Virus record (IMG/VR): IMGVR_UViG_3300010354_000045
Location: 97,494 to 161,493 of that record
Source of the DNA: a virus
Strand: one strand, 5' to 3'
Length of the DNA stretch: 64,000 bases
In this document: one piece after another, positions 5,682-47,011 of the stretch
Layout: each line of letters begins with the position of its first letter
Position numbering within the stretch: position 1 is the first letter of the stretch
Translations under genes and position numbers: made by a program
The notes under the pieces: generated by a model
Told to the model about the DNA's origin: nothing
The model's database searches: none
What the model saw: only the letters and a program-made list of their open reading frames with translations

Positions 5682-5708
5682 AAATGCGTCCTACATTAAG
5701 TACGCATA

Positions 5709-5716
5709 TATTTATC
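5709..5716 (-). promoter_or_regulatory. T4-like late promoter box
   Basis: GATAAATA on the minus strand, 28 bp before the ATG of the gene starting at 5681. Confidence 0.6.
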
Positions 5717-5717
5717 A

Positions 5718-22673: not shown

Positions 22674-24605
22674 TTATTTTTTACCAGCGCCCATGTCTAA
22701 TTCGGGTGCTCTTTCTGAATCAGAAGGTTTTGGCCCTTCAGGTTTCTTTTCTGGAGCAACTGATTGATTAACTCTATCAATAAGATTCTGTGCTTTTTCA
22801 AGCTCAGTGAACACTTCTTGATCTTCGATATCTGCAAGTTGACTCATTATAGCTTGGATTTCTTTTATAAGCTCTTTTTGTTTGTCGGTTAATTGTTTTT
22901 CAGGAGCCGCGTTCGCCGCATTAGCTGTATTAGCTGCATTAGCTGCATTAGCCGCATCGGCTGCATTAGACGTAGTATTACCTCCGGCTGCTTGGTCTGA
23001 ACTACCAGCTCCAGCTGGTTGAGCGCCTTGTCCTGAACTACCAGTTCCAGCCTGTTGTGCTGCTGATCCTGCATCAGAATCTCTATTAGCTAGATATCCT
23101 ACACCGCCCGCAGCCGCTGCGGTAGCTAATCCAGTTTTAACCGGATTGTTGGCAATGGCTTGACCTGTTCTGTTGGCACCGGTTGCAAGCCTAGTAGCTG
23201 GATTAACAGTACCAATACCTGCTCTTGCTTGTTGAGCTAATTGTGCAGGAGTTAACGGCTTTTTACCTGCTGCTACTCTTGTTGCATTTGTAGCAGCTTG
23301 GCTTGCAGCTAGTTCATCAGCAGTGCGTGTTGTTCCTTGAGCAGCTCGACCACGTAGTCCACCTATGAGATTTTTTCCAACGTTCACTGCACCTCTTCCA
23401 AGTCCGCTGATGACATCAAATATACCCTCGTCGACTTCGGCATCCGGAGAATAATCTCTTTGACTTCTTTCTAATAGGATTAGTTTATTTCTTAGATTGG
23501 CCATACTTTCGGCTACATCTTCTCTAATTCCTGCTGCACCATATGTTTCTGGGCCAGGCATTCCGTCTGCTTTAATTCCTTTTTTCTGTTGCCAAGCTTT
23601 AAGTTTAGCTGCTGTTTCAGGTCCCATAATACCATCTGGATTAGCACCTATAATTTTTTGTAATTTGGCTAATTTGTTATCGCTAGCCGGCATACCAGCT
23701 TGCCCAGATGAAGATTGAGCAGTTTGTGTAGGTTTATTACTATTAGCTACTGCTGTTTTAATTTCTTCATCGTCTGGAAAAAAACTTCCAGTACGAGCCT
23801 TGTCTCTTCCTGCGTTGTATCCTGCTAGTCCCAGACTAGCAGCAGTTCCGACACCTGGTATCATACCAGCTAGACCAGCTGCACCAGAAAGAGCAGCACC
23901 TGTATAATCACCTTGTTGCGCTCTTCTGTATGCATCGTATCCACCAGCAGCTAATCCTAATCCAGGAATAGCTTTACCGATAGTTGACCATACTCCTTCA
24001 TCAGTTTGCTGATAGCCAAAACTTTCTACTAATTCTTTAGAAATACTTCTCTGACCAACAGATTCTCTTAGCGTTCTTTCTAATTCAAACATACGTGTGC
24101 TTAGTTTAAACAGTGCGTCTTTAATAAATGCATCGCCTGAAATTTTTGCACCTGTTTGTGCGCTTGACTTTTTAACTTGATCAAATTCTTGGCCTGCTTT
24201 GCCGCCGGTTAGTAAGTTAGTTAATCCTGCAGGACCTTGTGCATTTTGTGGAACTAGTCCTAACTTCATTAATGGTTGCCAATCGGCTGGTGTTGGCGGA
24301 GCAATCTGCGGAGCACCGCCAGTTTGACCATCCATTCTTTTACTTGTAGCAACAACAAATTCACCCTTGCTATTAAATAAACCAGGTAATCCTGCTTTGT
24401 CTGCTAAATCAGCTAGGGCAACGTTGCCTGCTGTAACAGGATCAAAGGTTGTAAATGCTTTCCAACCGCCCTTAGCCTTATCCATCGCAGCCTGTCTAGC
24501 AGCCATTTTTTCTATTTCCTGTACTTGCTGGAGAGTTACTGCTTCCGAAATAACTTGAGTGTTTTCTATTGCTTCAAGTTCTTGAAGTAATGCTTTAAAA
24601 TCCAT
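22674..24605 (-). CDS. Large probable virion protein with peptidoglycan-binding domain
   Basis: 643 residues. Residues ~305-352 (LAKLQKIIGANPDGIMGPETAAKL...) are a peptidoglycan-binding type 1 domain. Residues ~228-268 are a Gly/Ala-rich hydrophobic stretch (ALSGAAGLAGMIPGVGTAAS), like a glycine-zipper hairpin able to enter membranes. The C-terminal third is Ala/Asn-rich low complexity followed by a helical, acidic end. The N-terminus (MDFKALLQELEAIENTQVISEA) contains I/L-x-E sites of the kind cleaved by T4 prohead protease. I infer a capsid-internal or ejected protein acting on the cell wall or membrane; no homologue of known function is recognised. Confidence 0.7.
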   Translation of the reverse strand: MDFKALLQELEAIENTQVISEAVTLQQVQEIEKMAARQAAMDKAKGGWKAFTTFDPVTAGNVALADLADKAGLPGLFNSKGEFVVATSKRMDGQTGGAPQIAPPTPADWQPLMKLGLVPQNAQGPAGLTNLLTGGKAGQEFDQVKKSSAQTGAKISGDAFIKDALFKLSTRMFELERTLRESVGQRSISKELVESFGYQQTDEGVWSTIGKAIPGLGLAAGGYDAYRRAQQGDYTGAALSGAAGLAGMIPGVGTAASLGLAGYNAGRDKARTGSFFPDDEEIKTAVANSNKPTQTAQSSSGQAGMPASDNKLAKLQKIIGANPDGIMGPETAAKLKAWQQKKGIKADGMPGPETYGAAGIREDVAESMANLRNKLILLERSQRDYSPDAEVDEGIFDVISGLGRGAVNVGKNLIGGLRGRAAQGTTRTADELAASQAATNATRVAAGKKPLTPAQLAQQARAGIGTVNPATRLATGANRTGQAIANNPVKTGLATAAAAGGVGYLANRDSDAGSAAQQAGTGSSGQGAQPAGAGSSDQAAGGNTTSNAADAANAANAANTANAANAAPEKQLTDKQKELIKEIQAIMSQLADIEDQEVFTELEKAQNLIDRVNQSVAPEKKPEGPKPSDSERAPELDMGAGKK

Positions 24606-24609
24606 TTTT

Positions 24610-24924
24610 TCAATCCTCTTTATTCTTTAGTCTTACACGTTCTGCTATTACAGAAGCATATTGATTAATAAGAGCTCTGCGCTGTTCTTTTTCTTTTAAT
24701 ATTTCTTCTTCAGCCTCCATAAAATACTTTTTTAGTAAAGTATCTTTTTGTTTTGCTGGTTGAGATTTTTGATAATGTTGCATGGTCATTTGTACAGGCA
24801 AACTAACTTTATGAGGACTAGTTCCTTCGTTTACTATCTGTACAAAACGTTTCATGTCGTTAGATCCTTCTACAGGCTTCGATGAAGCTCCGTCGATGGC
24901 CTGTAGAATTTTCCTCATATCCAT
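24610..24924 (-). CDS. Conserved phage protein, possible head-core component
   Basis: 104 residues, helical and strongly charged towards the C-terminus. The N-terminus (MRKILQAIDGASSKPVEGSNDMKRF) resembles short proteins found next to head-core genes in marine T4-like phages. It lies between two charged, virion-like proteins, four bases from each, so it is co-expressed with them. Function not known. Confidence 0.6.
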   Translation of the reverse strand: MDMRKILQAIDGASSKPVEGSNDMKRFVQIVNEGTSPHKVSLPVQMTMQHYQKSQPAKQKDTLLKKYFMEAEEEILKEKEQRRALINQYASVIAERVRLKNKED

Positions 24925-24928
24925 GATA

Positions 24929-26251
24929 TTATCCTAACAAACGCTGTGTTAGTTCTTTAACTCTTAAAACTTCGGCAGATTCTTTTACAGTCTCTTTTTT
25001 ATCTTCTTTGCCCATTGCTTTTTTGATTGCAGCGTCTTTATTATCTTTGTATTCTTTAGAATCTTTTTCTTTCTTACCGTCGTGATCCATGTCACCTTTT
25101 TCTGCTTCAGCTTCTGCTAGAGATTTCTTAGCGTCTTCTTTGACATTTTTCCACATGGTAACCGCAGCTGATTCCATTTTCTTACCAAACTTTTCTCCGC
25201 CCTTCATGCCCCATGTATTGCCTTTGTGCTTAGGTAGTTTAATATCATTGGCTTTATCTGCTTTCTTTTCAGCGGCCGATTTTTCTTTTACTTTGCTAGG
25301 TGCTTCACCGTGCTCTTCATCACTAAAATCTGTACGCTTATGCTTAACACCTGTTGCAGTTTTAGTTAGTTCACCAGTTTTTGTTTTTTTAGTATCGCCT
25401 ACTTTTTCTAATTCTTCTTTGACTTTCTTAGCTTTGCCGCCTTTTTCATCTTTACCTAAGCGTCCTGCAATAACATCACCGCGTGTTACTTTATCGTATG
25501 GTTTGGCATTGTTAGCTAAATTACCATCGCCTTTACCTTCGTCTAAATCTTTTTTCTTTTCTTTGTCTGCTTCTTTATCAGCTTTTTGACTTTGCCATCC
25601 TTGAACTTTAGTTGCTTTAACTTTAGCACCACTTGGTAGTTCTACTTCGCGCTCAGACTTTTTAGCTGGTTTACGATCTTCAGCTTCTGCAACTGCGGTT
25701 TCTGCACCAGCTTCAGCTTTTTTAGTTGGAGCTTTTTTAGCAGCAGGCTTTTTAGGAGCAGGCGCACTTCCACCGTCTGGATTGTGTGGCGGTGGAACAC
25801 CTTTATCAGGAGTAGAAACCCATACTCCGCCTTGAATAGATCCTTCTTTTACTTTTTCAGCTTGGGCTTTTTTAAGTTCTTTCATTTTAGCCTTAGCTTC
25901 TAAAAGTTTATTTTTTAATTCAGTTCTTTGACTTTCACTTAAAACATCGCTATTATCTAACTTATGTCCGTACTCACTAAATTTCATTTCGTATTCTAGA
26001 TAGTGATATACACTGGCAATATAGTCAGCAGCTTTGGTAATCTTTGCTTGTACCCAGGCTTCTAGTTGATCCTGATCCTGGATTTTTTTGAATAGTTTTA
26101 AGCTATAGTTAGCTAACTTGTATAGGTCAGCTTTGGCCATAGCACCTTCATGATCTGTTTCTCCAGGAGGAATAAACCCTTGTGGTTCGTCTGTAGGCAT
26201 AGAACCGCCTAGGTCCATTGGTGCATTCATTTGATCTAATTCTGGTGGCAT
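24929..26251 (-). CDS. Large Lys/Glu-rich probable virion-internal protein
   Basis: 440 residues. A folded, helical region (about residues 38-140, containing ADLYKLANYSLKLFKKI and AADYIASVYHYLEYEM) is followed by ~290 residues of Lys/Glu/Ala/Asp-rich low complexity with short repeated KAEAEAE and MDHDGKKEK blocks, and ends in a helix (VLRVKELTQRLLG). Such composition is typical of phage head-core or DNA-associated internal proteins. A CTAAATA late box lies 24 bp upstream and CGGAGT serves as ribosome binding site. No domain name can be given. Confidence 0.65.
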   Translation of the reverse strand: MPPELDQMNAPMDLGGSMPTDEPQGFIPPGETDHEGAMAKADLYKLANYSLKLFKKIQDQDQLEAWVQAKITKAADYIASVYHYLEYEMKFSEYGHKLDNSDVLSESQRTELKNKLLEAKAKMKELKKAQAEKVKEGSIQGGVWVSTPDKGVPPPHNPDGGSAPAPKKPAAKKAPTKKAEAGAETAVAEAEDRKPAKKSEREVELPSGAKVKATKVQGWQSQKADKEADKEKKKDLDEGKGDGNLANNAKPYDKVTRGDVIAGRLGKDEKGGKAKKVKEELEKVGDTKKTKTGELTKTATGVKHKRTDFSDEEHGEAPSKVKEKSAAEKKADKANDIKLPKHKGNTWGMKGGEKFGKKMESAAVTMWKNVKEDAKKSLAEAEAEKGDMDHDGKKEKDSKEYKDNKDAAIKKAMGKEDKKETVKESAEVLRVKELTQRLLG

Positions 26252-26274
26252 GAGTAAACTCCGTTTTCTTTATG

Positions 26275-26281
26275 TATTTAG
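26275..26281 (-). promoter_or_regulatory. Late promoter box
   Basis: CTAAATA on the minus strand, 24 bp before the ATG at 26251. Confidence 0.45.
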
Positions 26282-27054
26282 CGTTTTATAAATGATTGTT
26301 TTCCAATACTGCCCCCAGTAATAAGGTTAGTACCTTTCATATCTTGGGCGTTTTTAACAGTTCCATCTGGATTTTTAGCAGCTTTTGCTGGTTTGTTTTT
26401 GTATGTAGGACCAATGCTTACATTAGCAGCGCTGGTTGCTCCTGCGGTAGCTGATTCTTCTAAAGAGTTGTCGGAGTTCTTTTGCAACCAACTGTAAGCG
26501 CTGACAAAGTCACTAGGAAAATCTTCATCGTATCTAAAAATACCTGCTGCACGTTTTCTACCTAAATCATCTACAGCATACTTGTAACCTACATCTAAAA
26601 GTTCATCTGCCCTACCACTCGAGTCTAGATTAGGGTTATCAGAAAATACTTTCTTAGCAAGGATTTCGGAATACCTATCGCCGTCTTCGGCTAGACTTTG
26701 TTCGTCATCTTGTGCTTTCTTAGTTAAAAATATTTTACCATCTAGCTCTGGTTTGTTTTTTAATATGGCTAGTGCATAGTTATTTGCACCGCGTTTCCAA
26801 TCAAATACTTTAACTTCACCTTTACTTTTAAGAAGTTTTCCGTTAATTTTAATATACCAGGGGCCGCGATCACGGTCAATTTCTTGCTGTCGCATTTGTC
26901 GTTGCCAATTAGGATCGTCTTCATGCCCTAATTCGTGTTGTAATTCTGCACGTTTAAATGCACGCCTATCAGCATCCATCGCTCGTTGTTCTCTACGTTC
27001 ATAATCCATTGGATTATAAAAACTACTTCTTCTATAAATTTCGTTAAATCTCAT
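26278..27054 (-). CDS. Conserved hypothetical phage protein
   Basis: 258 residues. The first ~75 residues are a long, highly charged Arg/Glu/Gln helix; a small domain (WYIKINGKLLKSKGEVKVFDWKRG...) follows; the end is Gly/Ala/Lys-rich and probably flexible. No enzymatic motif. Coupled to the next upstream gene by a 4-nt overlap and located among virion-like genes, so a structural role is plausible. Confidence 0.6.
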   Translation of the reverse strand: MRFNEIYRRSSFYNPMDYERREQRAMDADRRAFKRAELQHELGHEDDPNWQRQMRQQEIDRDRGPWYIKINGKLLKSKGEVKVFDWKRGANNYALAILKNKPELDGKIFLTKKAQDDEQSLAEDGDRYSEILAKKVFSDNPNLDSSGRADELLDVGYKYAVDDLGRKRAAGIFRYDEDFPSDFVSAYSWLQKNSDNSLEESATAGATSAANVSIGPTYKNKPAKAAKNPDGTVKNAQDMKGTNLITGGSIGKQSFIKR

Positions 27055-27329
27055 AATTTTTTCTCACCTGTAAAGTAAGGTAAACTAAACCAAAGTTTAA
27101 ACCATTCGGGTGTGCCTGGCTTAATATTATTCTCTCTTTGTATTCTGCCGTTTTCACTGCCTGTTACACTAATATTCATTCCTCGCATTTCATGCAACTT
27201 AGCATCTGCTCCAAGACCTGCTAGGTGTTGCATGGCTTTTAATTCATGTATAGGATCGTCGGGGGCAAGATAACAGTCGTCGGGACTGTTTTGATTTAAA
27301 TGTTCAGTAGTGATCCTGTATTGTTTCAT
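27051..27329 (-). CDS. Conserved hypothetical phage protein
   Basis: 92 residues. Contains DDCYLAPDDPIHELKAMQHLAG and ends with the basic YFTGEKKL. I recognise it as a recurring protein of marine T4-like phages with no known function. ATGA overlaps join it to both neighbours. Confidence 0.6.
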   Translation of the reverse strand: MKQYRITTEHLNQNSPDDCYLAPDDPIHELKAMQHLAGLGADAKLHEMRGMNISVTGSENGRIQRENNIKPGTPEWFKLWFSLPYFTGEKKL

Positions 27330-27760
27330 TTTAACGTTGACCTTAACTGCCAGCTGTACTTTTTATGTATGTCTTGTCGTTCAGCTAGGAAGTTTGCAAG
27401 GCCATGATCTCCTGCTTGCTCGGCCATTTCATAGGTAATACGAAAAATATTAGCCATTTTTTCGCTATCTGATAATAGTTCAGCCACCATTGAACCTTGA
27501 TCTGGTACATCATCTTCGTCGTTAACTACAGATAACATACTAAATTTTTGTAAACTAGCAGGTGTATATAATTGTAATGCTCTCAGTTGTTCAGCAAATG
27601 TATCAATTCCTTCGTAAACTGCTTCGTAAATTTTTTCAAACAACATATGTAGTTGAGGAAAACTTGCTCCTTCTACGTTCCAATGAAAATTCTGTGCTTT
27701 AAGTGCAAATGCATACTCACTGGCAAATGCTGTTTTAAGTGCTAAATGATACTTGTCCAC
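27326..27760 (-). CDS. dps: Dps-like ferritin-family protein
   Basis: 144 residues, start codon GTG with GGAG 8 nt upstream. The sequence has the Dps signature NFHWNVEG...LHMLFEKIYEAVYEGIDTFAEQLRAL: H26, H38, E42, D53 and E57 correspond to the intersubunit ferroxidase ligands. Dps proteins form 12-subunit shells that oxidise and store iron with hydrogen peroxide and often protect DNA. The gene lies between virion-like genes and the NMNAT-like gene, four bases or less from each, so it is expressed with them. It may protect phage DNA or manage iron during infection. Confidence 0.85.
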   Translation of the reverse strand: MDKYHLALKTAFASEYAFALKAQNFHWNVEGASFPQLHMLFEKIYEAVYEGIDTFAEQLRALQLYTPASLQKFSMLSVVNDEDDVPDQGSMVAELLSDSEKMANIFRITYEMAEQAGDHGLANFLAERQDIHKKYSWQLRSTLK

Positions 27761-27761
27761 A

Positions 27762-28754
27762 TTAAACTCCGTATTTGTTCTTCTTAGGTTTAGCTACTGG
27801 GCTTGTTTTATTTACGTCGGCTACTTCTTCGCTACGGTTCCCACTCCAGTTTTGTATAGTACCTGCACCAACTTGTTGAGCAGCCTTTTTAACCATCTCA
27901 AATTCTTCTTCTGTATATGATGAAAGTAAAGGGTCTCCGCCAATCCAATTATCAGCTTCCATTTTAGTTGGATAATCAGGAGCGCCTGCTAATGCAATTC
28001 CCATGCGATAATTCATATAAGCAGATCCTGTACTCATATTAAGTCCGGGTAATGTTGATGCATTTCTCATAGCAGCTTTTTGAGTAGGGTCCATAGGTTT
28101 CATCTTGCCCTTAGCTTCTGCTACTGCTGATTTCTTTTTATCAGGATACTTGTTTAAAAAATATGCAACAACGTCAAACACTGGTAATTCTCTACCTTCA
28201 ACTTCTAAAGTAACGCTGGGTTTAATGCCCATATCTTTATAAAATACTTCTCTATTACCAGATTTTGCTGCTGCCCGCAAATTAGTAGCACTAGCTAGTC
28301 TTTCAGTCTTAATCCAGTCAATTTGATTAAACTTGTACATACCATGCGGCTTGTCACTTGCACCATTATACTGTTGTAACGTTTTAATTAACCACTCTTC
28401 GTCTGTGTAGACTTTTAAATGAACATTTGATCCGTGTTCTTCATATATTCTACTAGCAAGTGTTAGTAGACTTTGTTCAGGGATAACATGCCCAGCAACT
28501 TGCGGCCATACTGCTGCCATGCATTGTAATTTAACATCATACGGTAATGGATCTTTAGGTCCACTAGTAGCTTCGTTTGTGCCCACAAACCATATAGGAT
28601 TTTTACTAGCTGCCTTCCATACTTCTCTGTGACCACGATGCGGAGGATTAAATCGGCCAAAACACACGCCAATAGTTTTCAAACTTCCGTCAAACTCTTC
28701 TCCGCCTTCAGGAACTGTTTCATAAATGTTTTCAAAAAGTTCTCTTAATCTCAT
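27762..28754 (-). CDS. NMNAT-like nucleotidyltransferase with extra N- and C-terminal regions
   Basis: About 330 residues from the ATG at 28754, which overlaps the upstream stop as ATGA (an ATG 8 codons earlier is inside that gene). GRFNPPHRGH at residues 33-42 is the (H/T)xGH nucleotide-binding motif of nicotinamide-nucleotide adenylyltransferases, and SATNLRAA matches their second (ISSTxxR-like) motif. The core is followed by ~130 C-terminal residues of unknown role. The enzyme would transfer an adenylyl group, possibly for NAD synthesis. A 30-residue N-terminal extension before the catalytic core, MRLRELFENIYE..., looks like a capsid-targeting peptide. Confidence 0.78.
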   Translation of the reverse strand: MRLRELFENIYETVPEGGEEFDGSLKTIGVCFGRFNPPHRGHREVWKAASKNPIWFVGTNEATSGPKDPLPYDVKLQCMAAVWPQVAGHVIPEQSLLTLASRIYEEHGSNVHLKVYTDEEWLIKTLQQYNGASDKPHGMYKFNQIDWIKTERLASATNLRAAAKSGNREVFYKDMGIKPSVTLEVEGRELPVFDVVAYFLNKYPDKKKSAVAEAKGKMKPMDPTQKAAMRNASTLPGLNMSTGSAYMNYRMGIALAGAPDYPTKMEADNWIGGDPLLSSYTEEEFEMVKKAAQQVGAGTIQNWSGNRSEEVADVNKTSPVAKPKKNKYGV

Positions 28755-29968
28755 GCTGCTGTTGCTCCTGGGGCCCAAGAAGTGGGGACTATTTTTATAT
28801 TACCATATTTATGATGTTTTTGTGCATAGCGAACATGTCCTTCGCTGTTAGTATCCCATATTTCTTTACGAGGCTGTTGCCTAATACCCGCATCTACCTC
28901 GTCTTTCATGTTTCTAATGCCTTTAATTAAAAAGAATATAGCATCTAGGCCACCGGGGTGTGCTTCAATCATGTTTAATATGTGCTGTTGTTTTTTACCA
29001 CTAACGCCTTTTTCTTTCATCCATTGCAAAAAAGTATTTCCCGAAATACTGTTAAAATCTTGTTTACCAGACGCATGTAAATTACTCATCTGATTAAAGA
29101 ATGGATAAAATATGCCATTCTTATCTGGATCTGGTAAACTAGATAGAAAGTTATCTACAGCAGGTCCGTGTTCATTAACATATGCAATCATTTCGTCAAT
29201 GGGACTAGTATCAATTTCTGGTGCAGTATCTGTATATATAGGACCTTGAACAATTAAACCTGGTGTTTGATTAAATTGACTAAAGTCATCCATAGGCTGT
29301 TGAGCACGATCAGGAGCACCAAAAGTTTCAAAATAAGCATGGCCTACCACCATTACCTGCGCCTGGCCTATTCGTGTTCCAAGTTCGCTAGCAGCATCTA
29401 CATGATAACAGGTGTTTGATTTAGGGTTTGGACAAAAAGTCCATACGCCTTTAGGATATTCTTTAGTTGGATTATCTAATCTTTTAGGATTTGCAGGTTC
29501 AACACCAAATAAATTGTCTGCATATACAAACCCTACAAAATCTTCAGGTGTAGCTGCATCAAATAAAGGATAAAGATTAGCAAAATTTGTTGCAAATTCT
29601 TGACGCTTTTTTGCATCTTCAGGAGTTTTAGGATTGCCACTTTTGTTAGCAATAAAATCGTATACTTCTTGAGGACTAGTGCCTTTAACCCCTCTACTCC
29701 ATTGGTTATGTCCTGCTAGTATAAGCGGTCCGCCCTTTTCTTCTCTGCCCCAATATACTTGAGGATTACCATCCCATTTACGTCTAATAGTTGTCTTACC
29801 TGGTTGTTCTTCTGCTATTTCTTTAAAGTGTCCTAGTGCTTCAAGTGTTCCTCTAGATCCTTTAAAAAATACAAGGTGTTCGGGATGATTGAAAGGTCTA
29901 CCATACCTTTCCATGCTGTCGTCTACGTCAGCATTAGCTTCACGAAAAAATAATTCACGTAGCAGCAC
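28751..29968 (-). CDS. DUF6267-like protein with KxDG ligase-type motif
   Basis: 405 residues, start codon GTG with AAGGA 7 nt upstream. The motif IRRKWDGNPQVYWGR (K64-W-D-G67) resembles motif I of nucleotidyltransferase-fold ligases and is the hallmark of the phage DUF6267 family. Residues 22-60 (HPEHLVFFKG...) also fit that family. Activity is unproven; the lysine could be adenylylated. The N-terminus MLLRELFFREANAD is a short amphipathic leader like those of other proteins in this block. It overlaps the NMNAT-like gene by 4 nt. Confidence 0.7.
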   Translation of the reverse strand: MLLRELFFREANADVDDSMERYGRPFNHPEHLVFFKGSRGTLEALGHFKEIAEEQPGKTTIRRKWDGNPQVYWGREEKGGPLILAGHNQWSRGVKGTSPQEVYDFIANKSGNPKTPEDAKKRQEFATNFANLYPLFDAATPEDFVGFVYADNLFGVEPANPKRLDNPTKEYPKGVWTFCPNPKSNTCYHVDAASELGTRIGQAQVMVVGHAYFETFGAPDRAQQPMDDFSQFNQTPGLIVQGPIYTDTAPEIDTSPIDEMIAYVNEHGPAVDNFLSSLPDPDKNGIFYPFFNQMSNLHASGKQDFNSISGNTFLQWMKEKGVSGKKQQHILNMIEAHPGGLDAIFFLIKGIRNMKDEVDAGIRQQPRKEIWDTNSEGHVRYAQKHHKYGNIKIVPTSWAPGATAA

Positions 29969-29971
29969 AGT

Positions 29972-30343
29972 TTATTCCTTATATTTGCCTTCTTTAATTT
30001 GTGTGCAAATTTCTTCATGTAACTTTTTACATATCTCGTTGCACACTTCTTCATCTAAGGATCCAGGAAGTTCTCTAATAGGAAATTTTTTGCAATAATG
30101 ATTGTAACTATCTAAAACAGCGGTTTTAAATAGAGTAGGATTTGTTGGTTGTTTTAGATCTATACGATCTTGGCAGCGCATTATAGCTGGGTACAAATTA
30201 CGACGGTAAATATCATCGTCGTTATTCATAAAGTAGACAAGATCTTCAGCTAGATCAAAGTTAATTTCTCTCTTGTCGCCAGAGTGTTTAACGAATTCTA
30301 GATCTTTGAAATTTTTGCCTTCTATTAAGTCAATAATACGCAT
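29972..30343 (-). CDS. Conserved hypothetical phage protein
   Basis: 123 residues with four cysteines, mostly helical, ending in a Lys/Glu-rich helix. The N-terminus MRIIDLIEGKNF carries an L-x-E/G site near residue 8, like the leaders of neighbouring proteins. A GATAAATA late box lies 44 bp upstream, overlapped by a 7-bp inverted repeat. Function unknown. Confidence 0.65.
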   Translation of the reverse strand: MRIIDLIEGKNFKDLEFVKHSGDKREINFDLAEDLVYFMNNDDDIYRRNLYPAIMRCQDRIDLKQPTNPTLFKTAVLDSYNHYCKKFPIRELPGSLDEEVCNEICKKLHEEICTQIKEGKYKE

Positions 30344-30366
30344 ATACTGTTTCCTAAGAAAATACT

Positions 30367-30394
30367 TACTCTAAATGATTATAGAGTATTTATC
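30367..30394 (-). promoter_or_regulatory. Late promoter box with adjoining inverted repeat
   Basis: GATAAATA on the minus strand (30387-30394) runs into a 7-bp inverted repeat, TACTCTA at 30367-30373 and TAGAGTA at 30382-30388. Other late boxes in the window do not have this repeat. Confidence 0.55.
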
Positions 30395-30412
30395 GCTTTT
30401 GGTATTGCAGTA

Positions 30413-31054: not shown

Positions 31055-33302
31055 TTTCAATAGCGTCTACAGTAAGTAACGGGACTTTAGTAATTTTAGG
31101 TTTAGCAGTTAATAAAATTTTATTATTATCAACAGATATAGTTACCCAGCCTCCATTTTTTAAATCCCCAAACAACATCATCTTAGCTAGGTCTCTTTTA
31201 ATTTCTTTGTCAATAATTCTAGCTAACGGCCTAGCTCCCATTTTAGGATCAAATCCTTTATCGATTAACCAGTTAATCGCTTCTTTATCGATCTTAATTC
31301 GAACAGCTTTTTCCTTAACTTGTTCTTTTAGTTCGTCGATAAACTTCACAACAACTTTGGCCATTGTTTCTTTGCCAAGTTTATTAAAAGTAATAATACC
31401 ATCTAAGCGGTTACGGAACTCAGGAGTAAAGAATTTGTTAAGTTCTTTGTCGCTATATTCTTTTTGTTGACTACCGAACCCAATGGCATTTTTTTCTGCA
31501 TCTTGTGCGCCTGCATTAGTTGTAAGGATTAAAACTAATTGACGGCAATCTGCACGTTTACCATTTGACCCAGTAACAAAACCATTATCCATCATCTGTA
31601 GCAAAATTGTTGCTACATCAGGATGTGACTTTTCAATTTCGTCAAACAACAGAACAGCATTTGGATTCTCTTGAATCTGTGTAATTAGCAAACCTGCGTT
31701 TTCTTCAAATCCAACATATCCAGGAGGGCTACCAATTAGCTTACTAACACTATGCTTTTCTTGATATTCACTCATATCAAACCGGATAAGTTTAACACCA
31801 AGATTTTTCGCTAGACTTTTTGCAGTTTCAGTTTTTCCACAACCAGTCGGCCCCATAAACACAAAACTACCAATAGGTTTATTTTCTGATTTTAGACCTG
31901 CTTGTGCAACAATGATCTTATCTACAACTTCTTGAATAGCTATGTCTTGTCCGTAAACTTCTGATTGAAGATTTTCTTGGAGTGATGCTAGATTACTACT
32001 TTCTGTTTCCATAATCTTTTCTTCAGGCATCTGAATCATTTTAGCTAGCTCATACTGCACTTCTTGTTCGCCAATAATTTTTTCAGTGCTCAGTTTAAGA
32101 TTAAATCTAGAACAAGCAAGATCAATCAAGTCAATAGCCTTATCAGGTAATTTTTTATCTGTTTGATATTTCACAGACAATTTAATTGCAGCTTGAAGTG
32201 CCTCATCTTTAATCTTAGTACTATGAAACTGCTCATAGTATTTTTTAATACCTTTAAGTATCTGTAATGTAACTTCTTGAGTTGGCTCGTCAACTGTAAT
32301 TCGTTGGAATCGACGCATCAAAGCACGATCCTTTTCGAAATGTTTACGATATTCTTCCCAAGTAGTTGAAGCAATAACCTTAATATTTCCTTTACTTAGT
32401 GCGGGTTTCATCATATTAGCAAGATCGTTAGCGCTATTACCTGCACTACCTGCACCGCTAATCATATGTGCTTCGTCAATAAACAAAATAGTCTTGCCTT
32501 TTTTCTGCAATGCTTTGAGGACAACTTTAAATCTTTCTTCAAAGTCTCCTCGATATTTGCTACCAGCAAGCATAGCACTAATATCTAAATTGTAGACAAC
32601 ATAGTCTTTAAGGAAATCCGGAACAGCACCCTTAACAATATTATAGGCAAGTCCTTCTGCTATAGCAGTCTTACCTACACCTGGATCCCCAACAAGAATA
32701 ACATTATTCTTGCTACGTCTACCTAAAGATAGTGCAATGTTTTCAAGTTCGTCAATACGTCCGATTACAGGATCAATTTTATTTTTCTTAACCTGTTCAT
32801 TTAAATTAGTAGTAAACGCATTTAGAGCTTTGTCGTTTCCAGGATTTGATTCTTCTTCTCCAGTTTCTTCAACTGAATTATTAATATATTCTGCAAATTT
32901 TTCTTTTTGTATATCGGCAGTGGTAATATAATAGTAAGCCCATGATCGTTTTTCGCTCATCATAGCAATAAAAACATCAGTGGGATCAATACGTTGACGA
33001 CCATTAAACAATACCTGTGTAAAAGCTCGATTAAGTACACGCTCTACACTTTGAGTTTTTTTAGGTTTAACTACAACGTCTTCAACAGTAATTTCACTAC
33101 ATTGATTTTGTAAATAGTTAGCTAAATTTTGTTTTAACTCATCGGCATTTGCACCAAATCCTTTAACACAATTGACAAAAGAATCGTCTAACAACATTGA
33201 AAATAATAAATGTTCAATTGTTAGATATTCGTGATGTAATTTTTTCGCCGTATCGATTGCTTTTTCAAATACTGCTTGCAAATTATCGCTAGGTTCAACC
33301 AT
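31044..33302 (-). CDS. clpA: ClpA-type AAA+ unfoldase, full length, with ClpP-docking motif
   Basis: 752 residues, nearly the length of E. coli ClpA (758). The N-domain (YLTIEHLLFSMLLDD) is followed by AAA+ module D1 with Walker A GDPGVGKT (205-212), Walker B ILFIDEAH (about 272-279) and arginine-finger region ALMRRFQ. Module D2 has Walker A GPTGCGKT (484-491), YVGFEENAG, and LLFDEIEKSHPDV. The IGF tripeptide (607-609) that ClpA and ClpX use to dock on ClpP is present. No middle coiled-coil of ClpB type exists. It should unfold proteins and could feed the host ClpP. A weak promoter-like TATAAT lies at 33329-33334. Confidence 0.95.
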   Translation of the reverse strand: MVEPSDNLQAVFEKAIDTAKKLHHEYLTIEHLLFSMLLDDSFVNCVKGFGANADELKQNLANYLQNQCSEITVEDVVVKPKKTQSVERVLNRAFTQVLFNGRQRIDPTDVFIAMMSEKRSWAYYYITTADIQKEKFAEYINNSVEETGEEESNPGNDKALNAFTTNLNEQVKKNKIDPVIGRIDELENIALSLGRRSKNNVILVGDPGVGKTAIAEGLAYNIVKGAVPDFLKDYVVYNLDISAMLAGSKYRGDFEERFKVVLKALQKKGKTILFIDEAHMISGAGSAGNSANDLANMMKPALSKGNIKVIASTTWEEYRKHFEKDRALMRRFQRITVDEPTQEVTLQILKGIKKYYEQFHSTKIKDEALQAAIKLSVKYQTDKKLPDKAIDLIDLACSRFNLKLSTEKIIGEQEVQYELAKMIQMPEEKIMETESSNLASLQENLQSEVYGQDIAIQEVVDKIIVAQAGLKSENKPIGSFVFMGPTGCGKTETAKSLAKNLGVKLIRFDMSEYQEKHSVSKLIGSPPGYVGFEENAGLLITQIQENPNAVLLFDEIEKSHPDVATILLQMMDNGFVTGSNGKRADCRQLVLILTTNAGAQDAEKNAIGFGSQQKEYSDKELNKFFTPEFRNRLDGIITFNKLGKETMAKVVVKFIDELKEQVKEKAVRIKIDKEAINWLIDKGFDPKMGARPLARIIDKEIKRDLAKMMLFGDLKNGGWVTISVDNNKILLTAKPKITKVPLLTVDAIENVV

Positions 33303-33352
33303 TATGTTTCCTTGTTAAGCTGTTAAAATTATACACGAACTATCAGTATATT

Positions 33353-34198
33353 TTAAAGTTTTTGATTGATCTTTTTTAGTTCTTCAATAATATTTGGATC
33401 TGTTATCTTAGGAGTTTTAATTTCGACAACAGACACAAATCTTCCTCTTTGGTTTGTATTAAGATTAACAAACCCTTGCCCGTTGCTAGCATATTCAACA
33501 CCGGTCTCAACTCCTGGCCTTATATCAATCATCATAGTTTCACCAGTTATAGATTTTACTTGTTTACGACAACCAATAATTGCTTCTATTGGGTTAATGC
33601 TAATTTTAGTATACAAATCGTCTCCGGTTCTGGTAAAATCATTGTCTGGCATTACAAGAACAGTAACATTCAAATTTCCACGAGGCGCATTTGGAAAACT
33701 ATCATCACCTAGGCCCTGGTACCTTATAGTATCACCATGGTTGACGCCAGCAGGAATATTAACAGCAACAGTTTGAAATTTTCCGCTAGGCATTTGATAT
33801 TTTGCTTCCAACTGTTTACCTACATAAGAATCAAACAGACTTATTTGACATTGAATGTTTAAATCTCTATTTCTCCGCATACCACGTGCATGACCAAATA
33901 TATCTCCAAACGGACTATGCCCACCAAAATGAGCATTAAACATATCTTGGAAATGACTAAATCCTCCGTTTCCTGTATTAAAATGGAATTGTGTTCCACC
34001 GAACTGTCTTTGTTGGTCGTATTCGGCTTTTTTTTGAGGATCACTAAGAGTGTCGTAAGCTACACTAATATCCTTGAATTTAGCCTGATCGCCCCCTTTA
34101 TCGGGATGATGTTTGTTGGCTAAACTTCTGTATGCTTTTTTAATTTCGTCTGGGCTAGCTGATTCGCTAACACCTAAAATTGAATAATAGTCAGTCAT
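33353..34198 (-). CDS. dnaJ: DnaJ/CbpA-type J-domain co-chaperone
   Basis: 281 residues. J domain at residues 1-65 with HPD at 31-33; a Gly/Phe-rich linker (FGGTQFHFNTGNGGFSHF and beyond); and two beta-sandwich substrate-binding domains. The cysteine zinc finger of class I DnaJ is absent, so this is the class II form, as in CbpA. It would stimulate the host DnaK ATPase and bring clients to it. It lies 50 bp upstream of clpA and has its own promoter flanked by a 9-bp inverted repeat; the two genes probably share a transcript. Confidence 0.92.
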   Translation of the reverse strand: MTDYYSILGVSESASPDEIKKAYRSLANKHHPDKGGDQAKFKDISVAYDTLSDPQKKAEYDQQRQFGGTQFHFNTGNGGFSHFQDMFNAHFGGHSPFGDIFGHARGMRRNRDLNIQCQISLFDSYVGKQLEAKYQMPSGKFQTVAVNIPAGVNHGDTIRYQGLGDDSFPNAPRGNLNVTVLVMPDNDFTRTGDDLYTKISINPIEAIIGCRKQVKSITGETMMIDIRPGVETGVEYASNGQGFVNLNTNQRGRFVSVVEIKTPKITDPNIIEELKKINQKL

Positions 34199-34208
34199 AG
34201 TCGTAATA

Positions 34209-34255
34209 ACAGGTCAAGTAATATAGATAATACTATATTTACATTGACCTGTCAA
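34209..34255 (-). promoter_or_regulatory. Promoter of the dnaJ-clpA unit, flanked by an inverted repeat
   Basis: Minus strand TTGACA (34250-34255), 17 bp spacer, TATTAT (34227-34232). A perfect 9-bp inverted repeat, ACAGGTCAA at 34209-34217 and TTGACCTGT at 34244-34252, brackets the -10 region and overlaps the -35 box, as an operator might. Confidence 0.7.
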
Positions 34256-34266
34256 GCGAAAAGAAA

Positions 34267-34470
34267 TTATTTCTTTTCTGGAACTTTTTCACCTTCTACT
34301 TTTTTATGTACTTTAATTTTCTTACATTCTTTAGCAACTGATCCGTCTGCCTTTTTGATTACGTTGCCTTTGCTGTCTTTTTTATCTGTACAAACTTCTT
34401 TCATCTCGCCACCTGCATAGGCTGTTCCAGCCAATGCTAAACTGGTTACTAATGCTAATAAAATTTTCAT
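34267..34470 (-). CDS. Small secreted (periplasmic) Lys-rich protein
   Basis: 67 residues. The N-terminus MKILLALVTSLALAGTAYA-GG is a clear Sec signal peptide with cleavage after AYA. The mature ~48 residues are Lys-rich with two cysteines (VCTDKK... and ECKKIKV) that could form a disulfide. The ATG at 34470 has AAGGAGTG 5 nt upstream, which fixes the start; the longer frame to 34530 has no such site. It comes last in the lysis region, so a role at the envelope is plausible. Confidence 0.75.
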   Translation of the reverse strand: MKILLALVTSLALAGTAYAGGEMKEVCTDKKDSKGNVIKKADGSVAKECKKIKVHKKVEGEKVPEKK

Positions 34471-34480
34471 ATTACACTCC

Positions 34481-35029
34481 TTATAATAATGGTTGTGGTT
34501 CATCTGGCACAACTTTCTTTCCGCTAGCATTAGTAGTTACTCCTGCCGGCGCCCCAAATGATCCTGTATTTGATGGTGCAAATGTAGGTTCTGTTTTTGC
34601 TCCAAAGTTGCCAGATGAGCTTCCAAAGCCACTTCCGCCAGATGTACCTGCTGCTGGTGCACCAAACGAGCTTGATGCTCCGAATCCTCCTGCTGAAGGT
34701 TGGCCAAATGTTGAAGGCTGGCTTGATGCCACTGGTTGTATGCCGCCATTATTTGCTCCGTTTAATTTTTCTTGTGTACGACCCCATGCTGCTAAACCAA
34801 GTACAGCGCCCATAGCGATGTGGAACAGCCCTGCACCTTGTAGTGTTAATGGATTCCATTGCGTGATAGGCACTTTATTAAACGTCTGTAGTAAACTCCA
34901 AAGAATAGGAAATATAACCATGTCCATAGTGCAGACAATCATGTACATCCAACCCATCATTGGACGCCACTTAGAATTCATCCAATCTTCTTTTTTCTTT
35001 TCACTTTCGCTCTTAACTTCTTCAGTCAT
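34481..35029 (-). CDS. Holin candidate (GTA-type membrane protein)
   Basis: 182 residues. A basic N-terminus ending in NSKWRPMMGW is followed by hydrophobic segments (about 25-48 and 61-82, MYMIVCTMDMVIFPILWSL and LFHIAMGAVLGLAAWG). The WRP motif before membrane helices is typical of the phage/gene-transfer-agent holin group. The C-terminal ~95 residues are Gly/Ser/Ala/Phe-rich low complexity (GFGAS and SFGAP repeats), unusual for a holin. The neighbourhood (endolysin, spanins) supports the call. It could also be another envelope protein. Confidence 0.6.
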   Translation of the reverse strand: MTEEVKSESEKKKEDWMNSKWRPMMGWMYMIVCTMDMVIFPILWSLLQTFNKVPITQWNPLTLQGAGLFHIAMGAVLGLAAWGRTQEKLNGANNGGIQPVASSQPSTFGQPSAGGFGASSSFGAPAAGTSGGSGFGSSSGNFGAKTEPTFAPSNTGSFGAPAGVTTNASGKKVVPDEPQPLL

Positions 35030-35048
35030 TGTCTGCTCCTAAAACTAA

Positions 35049-35612
35049 TTACCAGAAAAGGAATAATCCGTTAGCCGATAAAACTACCCCAACGGCTGCA
35101 ACTCCAAAGCTTGCCCAAAACATAGGCATGCTTACAGCAAGAATGCTAGCAGATAATACAACAATAGATAATTGATATGCAGTTGAAGCATATCCAATCC
35201 ACGGGCTACCTTTCTTAGCTATATCTCTTTCTAGTTCTAGCTTCTTAGCTTTTTCCATGATTTCTTTTTTGTCAGTTTCCATACGTGCTGCTTCAGCTTC
35301 TAACTTTGCTTTATTTTCAGGTAATTTAGCTTCTAATGCTGCTGTTTCATATAAAACCTGACGTACATTTTTTGCTTGATACCATGCCCATTGGTTATTT
35401 GCAGCAATAGTGTTATTTAAAACGGTACCAGATAATTTTCCGCCGTACCATGCATTTACGGCCAATAATAACGCAAATACAGAAATTACCATGCCTGCTT
35501 TATCTTTAATTTTTGCTTCACGCTCGCTGCGACTACCTACAGGAGGTTTTGGTGCATCTTGATCCTTAGGTTCTTTATTGATTAATTTTAAAATAGAATC
35601 ATGTAACGCCAT
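35049..35612 (-). CDS. DUF4337-family membrane protein
   Basis: 187 residues. A membrane segment near residues 40-58, NNQWAWYQAKNVRQ, a ~50-residue charged coiled coil, then two C-terminal hydrophobic segments (about 144-164 and 166-187). This order and the N-(N/D)QW-x-YQAK signature match the DUF4337 family. Role unknown; because it lies between the holin and spanin candidates a lysis or envelope function is possible. An AATAAATA late box is 25 bp upstream. Confidence 0.75.
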   Translation of the reverse strand: MALHDSILKLINKEPKDQDAPKPPVGSRSEREAKIKDKAGMVISVFALLLAVNAWYGGKLSGTVLNNTIAANNQWAWYQAKNVRQVLYETAALEAKLPENKAKLEAEAARMETDKKEIMEKAKKLELERDIAKKGSPWIGYASTAYQLSIVVLSASILAVSMPMFWASFGVAAVGVVLSANGLFLFW

Positions 35613-35635
35613 TGTTTGCCCCTAATATAATACTA

Positions 35636-35923
35636 TTATTTATTGGATTTTTCCATAATTTCTTTATAGGCTAATCGCCTCTCTTCAGACGCTTTAACTT
35701 CTAGCATGAGCTCGTGAGCAACTTTTTGGGCCTTTTCAGCCGCCGCAAGAGCAGATTGGTATTCTTTGTCAGTAGCTTCTGCTGCTCTACGTTTAGCTTC
35801 TATTAGTTCTTTTTCAGCTTTTTCTAAATCACTGATAGCAGAATCCGCATATTTTTTAGCGCCCAAGAATAATCTTTTAAGTCTTTTTGCTGCCGCTTCT
35901 TCTAATTTTCTTATAAAGCTCAT
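35636..35923 (-). CDS. Coiled-coil protein in the lysis region
   Basis: 95 residues, almost entirely a Lys/Glu/Ala coiled coil without hydrophobic membrane segment. It starts 2 bp after the o-spanin candidate gene. A late box for the next gene lies over its stop codon. Function unknown. Confidence 0.6.
   Translation of the reverse strand: MSFIRKLEEAAAKRLKRLFLGAKKYADSAISDLEKAEKELIEAKRRAAEATDKEYQSALAAAEKAQKVAHELMLEVKASEERRLAYKEIMEKSNK
35637..35644 (-). promoter_or_regulatory. Late promoter box
   Basis: AATAAATA on the minus strand, 25 bp before the ATG at 35612. Confidence 0.5.
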
Positions 35924-35925
35924 AG

Positions 35926-36201
35926 TTATTTCCCGTCGTGGATTTCTTTCTGTCCTTTATACCATAAAATCCAATCGTCTACTTTAGCTCTACATTCGTG
36001 GTATTGTTTGTAGTTTTCAACTACTACTTCTAACACTCCGCTTAGTTTACTAGTATTTTCTGGAACATTTTTAAGATCAGGACAAGCTTCTAATAATTCT
36101 TGAGTTACTCCTGGCCAGGGCTGTTTAACTGGCGGAGTCTTAGCTACTGAAAAACATCCACTTAATATAACACTTAAAGAAATAATTAGGAGTTTTTTCA
36201 T
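35926..36201 (-). CDS. Outer-membrane spanin (o-spanin) candidate lipoprotein
   Basis: 91 residues. MKKLLIISLSVILSGC is a lipoprotein signal with lipobox LSGC, so the mature protein would begin at a lipidated Cys16. The mature part is Pro-containing near its start, has a C-P pair, and ends in a helical region with one more Cys (YHECRAKVDDW). It overlaps the upstream coiled-coil membrane gene by 4 nt (ATGA), as expected for a two-component spanin. It would bridge to the inner-membrane partner to disrupt the outer membrane at lysis. Confidence 0.75.
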   Translation of the reverse strand: MKKLLIISLSVILSGCFSVAKTPPVKQPWPGVTQELLEACPDLKNVPENTSKLSGVLEVVVENYKQYHECRAKVDDWILWYKGQKEIHDGK

Positions 36202-36701
36202 TTTTTAACTCCCAATGGATTTTTAGCAGCATCATTTAAAATGTTAACTGCTTCTTGAGGTACTTCGCATTTAGCGTCAATAATTTCACGTTGAACAACA
36301 ATTTTTTCTTTAACAACATCAACATACTGTGTAATAACTTGTTGTTTCTTTTTTCTTTCTGTTTCTAAATCTCTATTTAATCTATCAGCTTGGGCTGCTT
36401 TTCTATTAGCATCTTCTTGGGCAGTTCTAACACGTTCATTCCACATAGATTGAACTTCAGAAGCTCCAAACATAAAAACTGATAGTAGTGTTATAAGGCC
36501 GAAAACAGGCCTTAAAAATCTTGCGTAAACACCTATGGCAGGAAAATGACTTAATATGCCGTTGGCAAAGTATATTGCTAATGATGCACCAGCCGACGCT
36601 AACCAAACCCAAGGAGGTATACTACTTAATACAGTATCAATAATACTAGCAAAAGATGGTAGACTGCCAAACATTAGGCTAGTTAACCAATCAAATCCCA
36701 C
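36198..36701 (-). CDS. Inner-membrane spanin (i-spanin) candidate
   Basis: 167 residues. Hydrophobic segments at about 29-48 and 61-82, then a long charged coiled coil (about 88-140, with NRKAAQADRLNRDLETERKKKQQ) and a short tail with a single Cys (DAKCEVP). This topology fits an Rz-type i-spanin, though these usually have one membrane segment. The gene lies directly after the endolysin gene (1 bp) and overlaps the o-spanin candidate. Confidence 0.65.
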   Translation of the reverse strand: MGFDWLTSLMFGSLPSFASIIDTVLSSIPPWVWLASAGASLAIYFANGILSHFPAIGVYARFLRPVFGLITLLSVFMFGASEVQSMWNERVRTAQEDANRKAAQADRLNRDLETERKKKQQVITQYVDVVKEKIVVQREIIDAKCEVPQEAVNILNDAAKNPLGVKK

Positions 36702-36702
36702 T

Positions 36703-37332
36703 TCATTCTCCTAAAATATGAAGTGCGTGATTGTAGTGTTTGATTCGGTCTTCTAGACCTAACGTTCCTCCGTTAATTCTTTTAGTCAAAGTTAACATAT
36801 CACCTTTATCGGCCCACTGATTAAGATTGTTGGCCTCCCAGAACCAAGCTGCTGATTGTACACACCCTTCAAATGTAGTTAAGTGCTCGCCAGCTTCTTC
36901 TACAGATATTTCTAAACTTTGTGCATATCTTTCATAATTGCTTTTTCCAGTTAACTGGATCAATCCTCGACCACAATATCTCCATCCATCGCCACTTTCT
37001 TCAGGGCCATTGCCCATCCTGTTAGCATATGCTCTATTGGCAATTTTTTCAGGCTGTTGTGCATATTGTCTAGCTATTTCTATGGTAGGAAAATATCTTG
37101 GCCATACCTTCATTAAACTTTCTGCTCTATAATTTAGATTTTCTTTAATTGCACGATAGTTTCCTGATTCATGTGCTGTTTGTGCTAAGAATGCAGCAAC
37201 TCTAGGCACAGTTTGAATTTCGTAATCTGGTAAAATTTGGCATAGTGCTTCATACCAATGATCTGCGTAAGGGTTTTTTCCAATGAAAAAAGAAAATTTC
37301 TTAAAGGTAAAGTCAAAATCGAATCCGCTCAT
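36703..37332 (-). CDS. Endolysin, GH19 (chitinase-like) muramidase
   Basis: 209 residues. The glycoside hydrolase 19 pattern is clear: FLAQTAHESGNYRAIKENLNY with general-acid E55, then ANRMGNGPEESGDGWRYCGRGLIQLTG. Phage GH19 enzymes cut peptidoglycan. There is no signal peptide, so it needs the holin to reach the wall. It is the first gene of the lysis run and overlaps the preceding gene by 4 nt. Confidence 0.88.
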   Translation of the reverse strand: MSGFDFDFTFKKFSFFIGKNPYADHWYEALCQILPDYEIQTVPRVAAFLAQTAHESGNYRAIKENLNYRAESLMKVWPRYFPTIEIARQYAQQPEKIANRAYANRMGNGPEESGDGWRYCGRGLIQLTGKSNYERYAQSLEISVEEAGEHLTTFEGCVQSAAWFWEANNLNQWADKGDMLTLTKRINGGTLGLEDRIKHYNHALHILGE

Positions 37333-38063
37333 AGTTTCTCCAATGCTACAGCCCAGTTACTGTTTTCAAAAATAAAATAGTTTCCAATTTTGTTTATGTT
37401 ATAATTTCCTATGTACTTGGTAAGAAATAGTGTTTCTGCTATTCCGTTCCCTTCGATTACAATAGGACCTTTAATTTGTTCATAAACTAACTGTTTAGGA
37501 CCACTTGTTACTATTCTAAAGCTGATAGGATCAGCCCAGGCTTTTTTAAATTTTATGTTTTCGTCAAGGACGCTTATATTTTCTAAGTAACTGTTACTAA
37601 AAAAATTGGTAAAGTTTTCTAATACATTTTTTTGTGTAGCAAGTGTGTATGATTCTTTATCAATAGGGACAATCGCTGACAAGTTTTCAATTGTTGCGTC
37701 TTGGCTTTTGAAATTTTTAAAGTATCTAAAACGCATCAATGGTATACCTGTTATTTTTTCTAGACCTTCTAGTATCTCAAAAATTTGCTCAGGTACATGT
37801 CTAGTTCTTTCTAGTTCGACAAAAACTTTATAAGTACCGTCATCTGTTTCGCCTGATGACACATCTGCATCAAGAACAAAGTCGTACCCCATCTCTATAA
37901 AGTTTTCTAAATCTTTAGCAGGGTCTTCGTATTCAACGGTAAAACTTAAAACAACCGTATCTTGATCATCACCTATTTTACTTTTATAGGCATCTATTTC
38001 AAAAACCTTTTTAACTAGGCCTTGAAGATCTTTAGCAAGTAAACTTTCATTTAATGTTTTCAT
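37329..38063 (-). CDS. Conserved hypothetical phage protein
   Basis: 244 residues, acidic in the first half, beta-rich in the second. No catalytic motif. The N-terminus MKTLNESLLAKDLQG has an L-N-E/S site six residues in, similar to the leaders of the suspected packaged proteins. It overlaps the endolysin start by 4 nt and starts 2 bp after the upstream gene. Function unknown. Confidence 0.65.
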   Translation of the reverse strand: MKTLNESLLAKDLQGLVKKVFEIDAYKSKIGDDQDTVVLSFTVEYEDPAKDLENFIEMGYDFVLDADVSSGETDDGTYKVFVELERTRHVPEQIFEILEGLEKITGIPLMRFRYFKNFKSQDATIENLSAIVPIDKESYTLATQKNVLENFTNFFSNSYLENISVLDENIKFKKAWADPISFRIVTSGPKQLVYEQIKGPIVIEGNGIAETLFLTKYIGNYNINKIGNYFIFENSNWAVALEKL

Positions 38064-46994: not shown

Positions 46995-47011
46995 ACTTAA
47001 TCTCTTTTAAG

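Follow-up and report, generated by a model that had tools for sequence, protein, structure and literature searches.

In the virus record IMGVR_UViG_3300010354_000045 (161,493 bases), several enzymes and small proteins begin with short N-terminal leaders, which we read, with a probability of about 85 per cent, as T4-type capsid-targeting sequences (CTSs): the enzymes would be packaged in the phage head, the tag cut off, and the enzymes probably ejected into the host. The stretch analysed, called the window here, comprises the 64,000 bases at record positions 97494-161493 (G+C 36.7 per cent). Coordinates refer to the window unless the record is named, and all window features given below lie on the minus strand. 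The CTS reading is supported as the best explanation for four proteins: a small protein of 123 amino acids, a DUF6267 protein, an NMNAT-like enzyme, and a superoxide dismutase (SOD). The original prediction had placed such leaders on these four and on two further proteins (starting at 22674 and 37329). Conservation upholds the four, the other two are weaker, and one cleavage site has been reassigned. The proposed likeness to T4 capsid targeting is borne out by conserved leaders, a site that withstands insertions and deletions, a site of the gp23 type, a T4-type head module, and homologues in the virions of two cyanophages. Packaging thereby has good support, whereas for the window phage itself we infer packaging, cleavage, and ejection.

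Leader conservation in four protein families

Genes were called with a simple caller on stretches of the record, so starts may be missed or misplaced. A DNA search with the window region and a tblastn search of the DUF6267 protein against named phages gave no match, and relatives were therefore taken from IMG/VR. The nearest named relatives by similarity searches were cyanophages and Methylophilales phage Melnitz (Kyanoviridae). The record contains a T4-type head module, in which PHROGs identify the portal, the scaffold, and the major capsid protein.

Three of the four genes form a run, headed by the small protein at 29972-30343. This protein starts MRIIDLIE/GK... (the slash marks the putative cut), with leader codons 1-8 at 30320-30343. 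The predicted LIE/G site keeps its Glu8 in 28/28 relatives; these take the form MRI[RTVEN][ED]LLE/[GNS] (MRI..L.E in 28/28), with M1, R2, I3, L6, and E8 invariant. In an AlphaFold model, residues 1-16 are disordered (predicted local distance difference test score, pLDDT, ~42) and a helical domain is folded from residue 31.

The second gene, at 28751-29968, encodes the DUF6267 protein. Its leader, MLLRELFFRE/A (codons 1-10 at 29939-29968), recurs as MLLRE[LM]F[FYL].E in 28/28 related contigs, where the next residue is A, G, or S. Over 15 aligned sequences, seven residues of the predicted MLLRELFFREA start are invariant (M1, L2, L3, R4, E5, F7, and E10), while the next ~10 vary in both sequence and length. 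The Pfam domain begins at residue 27 in the window protein, at residue 19 in that of Melnitz (where a leader, MLTLINFSKYITE/D, is present as in the window), and at residue 4 in leaderless cyanophage versions. Given this domain start, and a model in which the leader is a separate helix (residues 2-12), the leader lies outside the enzyme. Motifs KWDG (I) and EGxV...K[IL]V (IV and V) are invariant. When model residues 24-402 were compared with VIA-align, RNA/DNA ligases and capping enzymes filled almost all of the top rows, at modest scores (Z <= 6.5); Foldseek and a profile search against the PDB gave no significant match. From its motifs and model, the protein is likely, but not proven, to be a ligase-like covalent nucleotidyltransferase.

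The third gene, at 27762-28754, encodes the NMNAT-like enzyme, whose leader MRLRELFE/N occupies codons 1-8 at 28731-28754. All intact relatives have M[RKN]LR[EQ]LFE except one with MNIIQLIE, and the linker between leader and enzyme runs from a few to ~20 residues. The protein is NMNAT/cytidylyltransferase-like by its active-site motifs (GRFNPPHRGH, matching GRFNPPHxGH, and SATNLR) and by PHROG (cytidyltransferase, 1e-14), with the substrate assigned by likeness; the Pfam match to CTP_transf_like fell below the cutoff. Here the predicted leader, MRLRELFEN, stands, and the predicted cut at IYE/T does not: that site is missing from many homologues (MKLRELFE/NPRQ..., MNLRELFE/ATHH...), and the conserved site LFE/N makes a cut after Glu8 likely. 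The start was corrected from an upstream TTG at 28778 to the ATG at 28754 (MRLRELFEN...).

The motif NATAAATA, which resembles the late promoters known from T4-like phages, occurs 28 times in the record and lies within 80 nt upstream of 23 genes, compared with ~1 expected. One copy (30387-30394) is 44-51 nt upstream of the small protein at the head of the three-gene run, and another (28806-28813) precedes the NMNAT-like gene and falls within the final part of the DUF6267 gene.

The Fe/Mn SOD is encoded elsewhere in the window, at 62083-62637, and starts MYNFIKTIVE/G (leader codons 1-10 at 62608-62637). It matches Pfam Sod_Fe_N (4.6e-08) and Sod_Fe_C (1.1e-22), and by sequence it keeps all four metal ligands when aligned to solved SODs: a His in YHHGK, a His in FLHDLYF, and the Asp and His of IDWWEHAW. 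Residue 6 of the solved SODs aligns with residue 20 of the phage protein, so the leader lies outside the enzyme, before its normal start, as had been claimed. Of 371 SOD relatives found, we kept 80 for reading the leader. The M[YF]NFI[KR] start and a hydrophobic-x-Glu site are present in 80/80, in line with the predicted IVE/G leader; because the first eight query residues formed part of the scan patterns, the sample may be biased towards the MYNFIK start, though any one of six patterns was enough to bring in a contig. The Glu falls at residue 10, 11, or 12, and the next residue is G, D, N, S, or K. The sites (IVE/G, LNE/G, INE/N, LSE/D, LKE/S, LQE/G) are thus kept across one- and two-residue indels. 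From the alignments, retention of the site despite changes in leader length would be hard to explain without a protease.

Two further observations concern phage SODs. That of Pseudomonas phage MIJ3, a jumbo phage of another family (L128:3983-4531), is extended at its N-terminus by a stretch that contains an I-A-E/A site (MNDSIKKYISIAE/AASS), and SOD frames of ~340 residues in some contigs (L088, L101, L103, L104, L107, L118) suggest a C-terminal fusion. A literature search on PA5oct and SOD found no virion data.

Aligned across related phages, the leaders are conserved in the SOD, DUF6267, NMNAT-like, and 29972 families alike: 8-12 residues precede the domain, and a variable linker follows. 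The ratio of non-synonymous to synonymous polymorphism (pN/pS) in the leader is no higher than in the enzyme cores: 0.15 for DUF6267, 0.17 for the NMNAT-like enzyme, and, in two SOD classes, 0.23 and 0.13. In the NMNAT-like and SOD families the linkers are less constrained than the leaders, though for the NMNAT-like enzyme the values for core and linker, computed with indels unaligned, are upper limits. On these comparisons, the leaders are under selection at the protein level and the linker after them is free.

The site itself has the form of the clade's own capsid junction. In relatives, the gp23 junction reads YL[MQILV]E/S, i.e. Leu at P3, Glu at P1, and a free P2; that gp23 is cut there is presumed by analogy with T4. 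The hydrophobic-x-Glu of the cargo leaders has this form and is near-invariant in the four families. T4 gp21 cuts after L/I-x-E. In the leader of the T4 internal protein IPIII, targeting depends on residues 4 and 7 and processing on residues 8 and 10, and Asp at position 10 prevents cutting but leaves targeting intact. Cyanophage NMNAT leaders fit the hydrophobic 4/7 rule after a one-residue shift, and the SOD leader fits it by half (F4, T7). A small conserved protein at record 46760-46999, between the portal and core genes of the clade, starts MILRELFYI[DN], which is the cargo leader form but with Asp/Asn at the position of the cargo Glu. By the IPIII precedent, this protein may be targeted but uncut.

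Counting motifs is a far poorer guide. A loose motif in the first 13 residues was found in 14/146 proteins of the record, compared with 6.7 +/- 2.5 in shuffles (P = 0.006) and 5.0 expected from internal windows. About half of the matches on motif alone would thus be chance. Such sites exceed chance in the record and show no excess in cyanophage S-SZBM1. We rejected motif counting as proof on its own, as the minimal [ILF]xE does not separate virion-detected from undetected proteins. With so poor a signal from single sequences, a database-wide count of sites would be uninformative without homologues. It is evolutionary conservation across the aligned families, not the motif alone, that makes the supported leaders real.

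Evidence from the virions of relatives

Further evidence comes from published mass spectrometry of cyanophage virions. Virions of S-SZBM1 contain the NMNAT-like gp140 (2 peptides, 13.5 per cent coverage), which starts with a T4-like leader, MRFRQFIIE/AVAAAAKK. Among relatives of gp140 in IMG/VR, 80/80 carry a leader, in two cases behind an alternative upstream ATG. Virions of S-CREM2 contain the NMNAT-like gp154 (MKNFSSFLTE/A), the S-adenosylmethionine (SAM) lyase gp6 (MKDFDSFLEE; lyase domain at residues 37-170), the kinase-like gp14 (MKRFDAFLTE), and gp13 (MKDLHSFLTE). NMNAT-like proteins have also been reported from virions of S-SM1, S-SCSM1, and S-CBWM1, and such leaders also occur on kinase-type genes of S-CRM01, S-N03, and S-B68 and on the genes beside them.

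We compared detected and undetected S-CREM2 proteins using a strict T4-internal-protein pattern, M-[KR]-x-hydrophobic-xx-hydrophobic-hydrophobic-x-E. This was found in 4/28 virion-detected non-structural proteins and in 0/144 undetected ones (P = 0.0006); the pattern was tightened after the data had been seen, and the P value is descriptive. With looser patterns, P ranged from 0.01 to 0.12; S-SZBM1 by itself offers too few proteins for the test.

DUF6267 proteins are leaderless in S-SZBM1, P-HM2, P-TIM40, and S-SSM4. The S-SZBM1 version is absent from the virion list, while its NMNAT-like neighbour is present (a single case). No in-frame leader was seen upstream of the annotated starts of the leaderless DUF6267 and NMNAT-like homologues. 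On the CTS reading, relatives with a leader would be expected to carry the protein in their virions, and those without one to lack it.

The leader goes unmentioned in the relevant section of the S-CREM2 study. In the literature searched, 'capsid targeting' and 'cyanophage' occurred together only in the T4 review, which suggests that a variety of proteins could be packaged by T4-like phages by means of CTSs, and we found no report of SOD as T4-type cargo. The mechanism of CTS and gp21 was already established in T4; what is new is the cargo and how far it has spread.

A further S-CREM2 virion protein, gp12 (L015:7704-10313), is annotated as a Cas9-like nuclease but has no Pfam match, and carries a longer leader ending FMAE/A. 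This leader form is common to proteins in a similar position in S-CRM01, S-N03, and S-B68.

Additional candidates

The protein at 24610-24924 is a candidate addition to the predicted set, as cargo or core protein, based on its CTS-like DMKRFVQIVNE/G (Glu33; codons 1-33 at 24826-24924). Its relatives read IVNE/G, VVTE/G, IINE/G, VLKE/G, LLQE/G, or QISE/G, and the site is retained through indels. The large Ala-rich protein at 22674-24605 has a peptidoglycan-binding domain (PG_binding_1, Pfam) and a possible leader of ~20 residues (21, at 24543-24605) ending in the predicted ISE/A. Relatives have LEE/A, LSE/A, and ILE/A at similar positions, though homologues are few, and this leader is plausible but weaker. 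The protein at 37329-38063, a virion structural protein homologue (PHROG 13138, head and packaging), has LNE/S at residue 6, where relatives read MINE/S or MQLTE/S. This site was first dismissed as too short, but cleavage of T4 Alt already occurs at ITE-6 (PMC5694885), and it is kept as a possible site.

Two candidates were rejected. The Dps/ferritin-like protein at 27326-27760 (Pfam Ferritin, 8.5e-18) adjoins the NMNAT-like gene, a position conserved in relatives, and neither it nor its homologues have a leader. Homologues of the protein at 27051 are likewise without one.

The protein at 26278-27054 contains an internal capsid-protein cleavage junction, LEE/SATAGATSAANVS, which matches L[QM]E/S[AP]TAGATSAG of the clade's gp23. 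Typical leaders (MKILDIINE/V, MKVTEILSE/V) occur in several of its relatives but not in the window copy. Sequence that follows the capsid cut is echoed in a separate protein, as SATAGATSAG in 26278-27054 and as FTGAAAPxGPxAGYDP in S-CREM2. Such echoes are found in the window protein, in S-CREM2 gp160 (L009:14343-15236), and in P-HM2_171 (L007:19433-20137), and the S-CREM2 protein was detected in virions.

Outside the window, two proteins have leader-like starts with a NATAAATA motif upstream: a PHROG virion structural protein at record 5549-6160 (MKSFKEYLIE/S) and a protein at record 52105-53286 (MKILDIVHKEQINE/Y).

Proposed mechanism and alternative explanations

Under the CTS reading, leader-bearing proteins would be made late in infection, and the amphipathic N-terminal peptide would draw each into the core of the assembling prohead. 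A gp21-type prohead protease would then cut after the Glu of hydrophobic-x-Glu, at the time when the scaffold and major capsid protein are cut. The untagged enzyme would stay in the head during DNA packaging, at low copy number, and would probably be ejected into the next host. The predicted cargo comprises the Fe/Mn SOD, the NMNAT-like enzyme, the ligase-like DUF6267 protein, and the small 29972 protein, probably with the 24610 and 22674 proteins. These may act in the first minutes of infection, in repair of nicotinamide adenine dinucleotide (NAD) or nucleic acid, or in protection from superoxide or host defence. Once injected, the NMNAT-like enzyme could restore NAD, the ligase-like one could repair nucleic acid that host defences have cleaved, and the SOD could limit superoxide. 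In the relevant part of the literature, NAD restoration by phages against NAD-depleting defence is a known theme, which we would extend to the window's NMNAT-like enzyme.

Several points weigh against this reading. The gp21-type protease gene of the record is split by a frameshift (record 45190-45836, minus strand) and is intact in relatives. This is probably an assembly or base-call error: gp21 is intact upstream in 74/80 related contigs, and the other 6 have a short upstream stretch, mostly with the match at the contig end. The leaders MRLRELFE, MLLRELFFRE, and MRIIDLIE differ from T4 in the spacing of the hydrophobic positions 4 and 7. No NATAAATA late-type motif lies within 80 nt upstream of the SOD gene. 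The loose motif is only about two-fold enriched in the record and shows no excess in S-SZBM1, and the NMNAT-like protein of P-HM2 has no leader. Lastly, the S-CREM2 authors allow for co-purification or contamination.

The alternative that survives best, though we consider it unlikely, is that targeting to the prohead is real but its purpose is head assembly: the proteins would work as T4 gp67, gp68, and IPIII do, with no delivery of active enzyme. The conserved short protein beside the portal gene has the leader form (MILRELFYID), T4 IPIII affects head shape, and the S-SZBM1 NMNAT-like protein has a low exponentially modified protein abundance index (emPAI), similar to that of the protease. 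However, enzyme motifs are kept (the SOD metal ligands by sequence, KWDG of DUF6267, and the nucleotidyltransferase motifs), and the packaged set of S-CREM2 has a SAM lyase and a kinase-like protein.

It is very improbable that the leader instead anchors the enzymes to some other structure of the phage or host, such as the membrane or a replication complex, and that the virion homologues are contamination from abundant lysate proteins. The leader is amphipathic, and contamination was raised by the S-CREM2 authors. Yet the leader is common to detected non-structural proteins, with the strict form in 0/144 undetected ones, and the leaderless S-SZBM1 DUF6267 protein went undetected beside its detected NMNAT-like neighbour. 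Docking also fails to explain why the hydrophobic-x-Glu junction of gp23 is kept.

Least credible of all is that these are ordinary N-terminal extensions, with sites by chance, on enzymes that act only inside the infected cell: the loose motif is common (6.7/146 expected, no S-SZBM1 excess) and leaderless NMNAT-like and DUF6267 homologues exist, but leader residues are invariant where the following ones are free to vary, the site survives indels in the SOD and 24610 families, and leader-bearing homologues are present in virions, which largely refutes this explanation for the four core cases.

A broader reading is evenly balanced between being right and wrong: that cargo is modular across freshwater and marine T4-like phages, any enzyme with a 10-residue leader being packed and injected. 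Lineage-specific early kits (SOD, NMNAT-like, and RNA/DNA-ligase-like enzymes here; SAM lyase, kinase, and NMNAT-like proteins in S-CREM2) would then act before phage gene expression, for example by restoring NAD, sealing RNA or DNA cut by defence, or blocking superoxide or restriction. Among the proteins found repeatedly in published cyanophage virion proteomes are NMNAT-like enzymes, kinases, and a SAM lyase, which the authors of those studies were unable to class as either cargo or contaminants. For such proteins, a T4-type tag that is conserved and removable provides a simple mechanism and allows cargo to be predicted from sequence. The tag also suggests an injection of preformed enzymes, an SOD among them, by phages of abundant aquatic bacteria; effects on host metabolism or defence could then precede phage transcription. 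The natural leaders could also be used to load proteins into phage heads.

Comparison with known systems

The closest parallel is with IPI, IPII, IPIII, and Alt of T4, which share with the window proteins a short amphipathic N-terminal leader, a cleavage site of the form hydrophobic-x-Glu, a T4-type head module, and late genes. The MKTYQEFIAE/A of IPII and IPIII closely matches cyanophage leaders, and T4 Alt is also an enzyme. Unlike the T4 internal proteins, the predicted window cargo consists of SOD, NMNAT-like, and ligase-like proteins, and its copy number appears low. The leaders of the window clade also differ from those of T4 in often reading MxLRELF with the Glu at position 8 or 10.

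The virion-associated NMNAT-like, kinase, and SAM-lyase proteins of S-CREM2, S-SZBM1, S-SCSM1, S-CBWM1, and S-CRM01 are a second parallel, in which the NMNAT-like proteins are homologous to that of the window. Their leader is present in S-CREM2, S-SZBM1, and S-CRM01, and their presence in virions comes from published mass spectrometry. In the relevant sections of the published accounts, the leader is unmentioned and the choice between packaging and contamination is left open. SOD and DUF6267 are not among the cargo reported for these phages. In SPN3US and the phiKZ-like giant phages, the ejection proteins inside the head are likewise targeted there, and a related protease cleaves them after Glu; most of their propeptides, however, greatly exceed in length the 8-12 residues found here, and their cargo differs (virion RNA polymerase).

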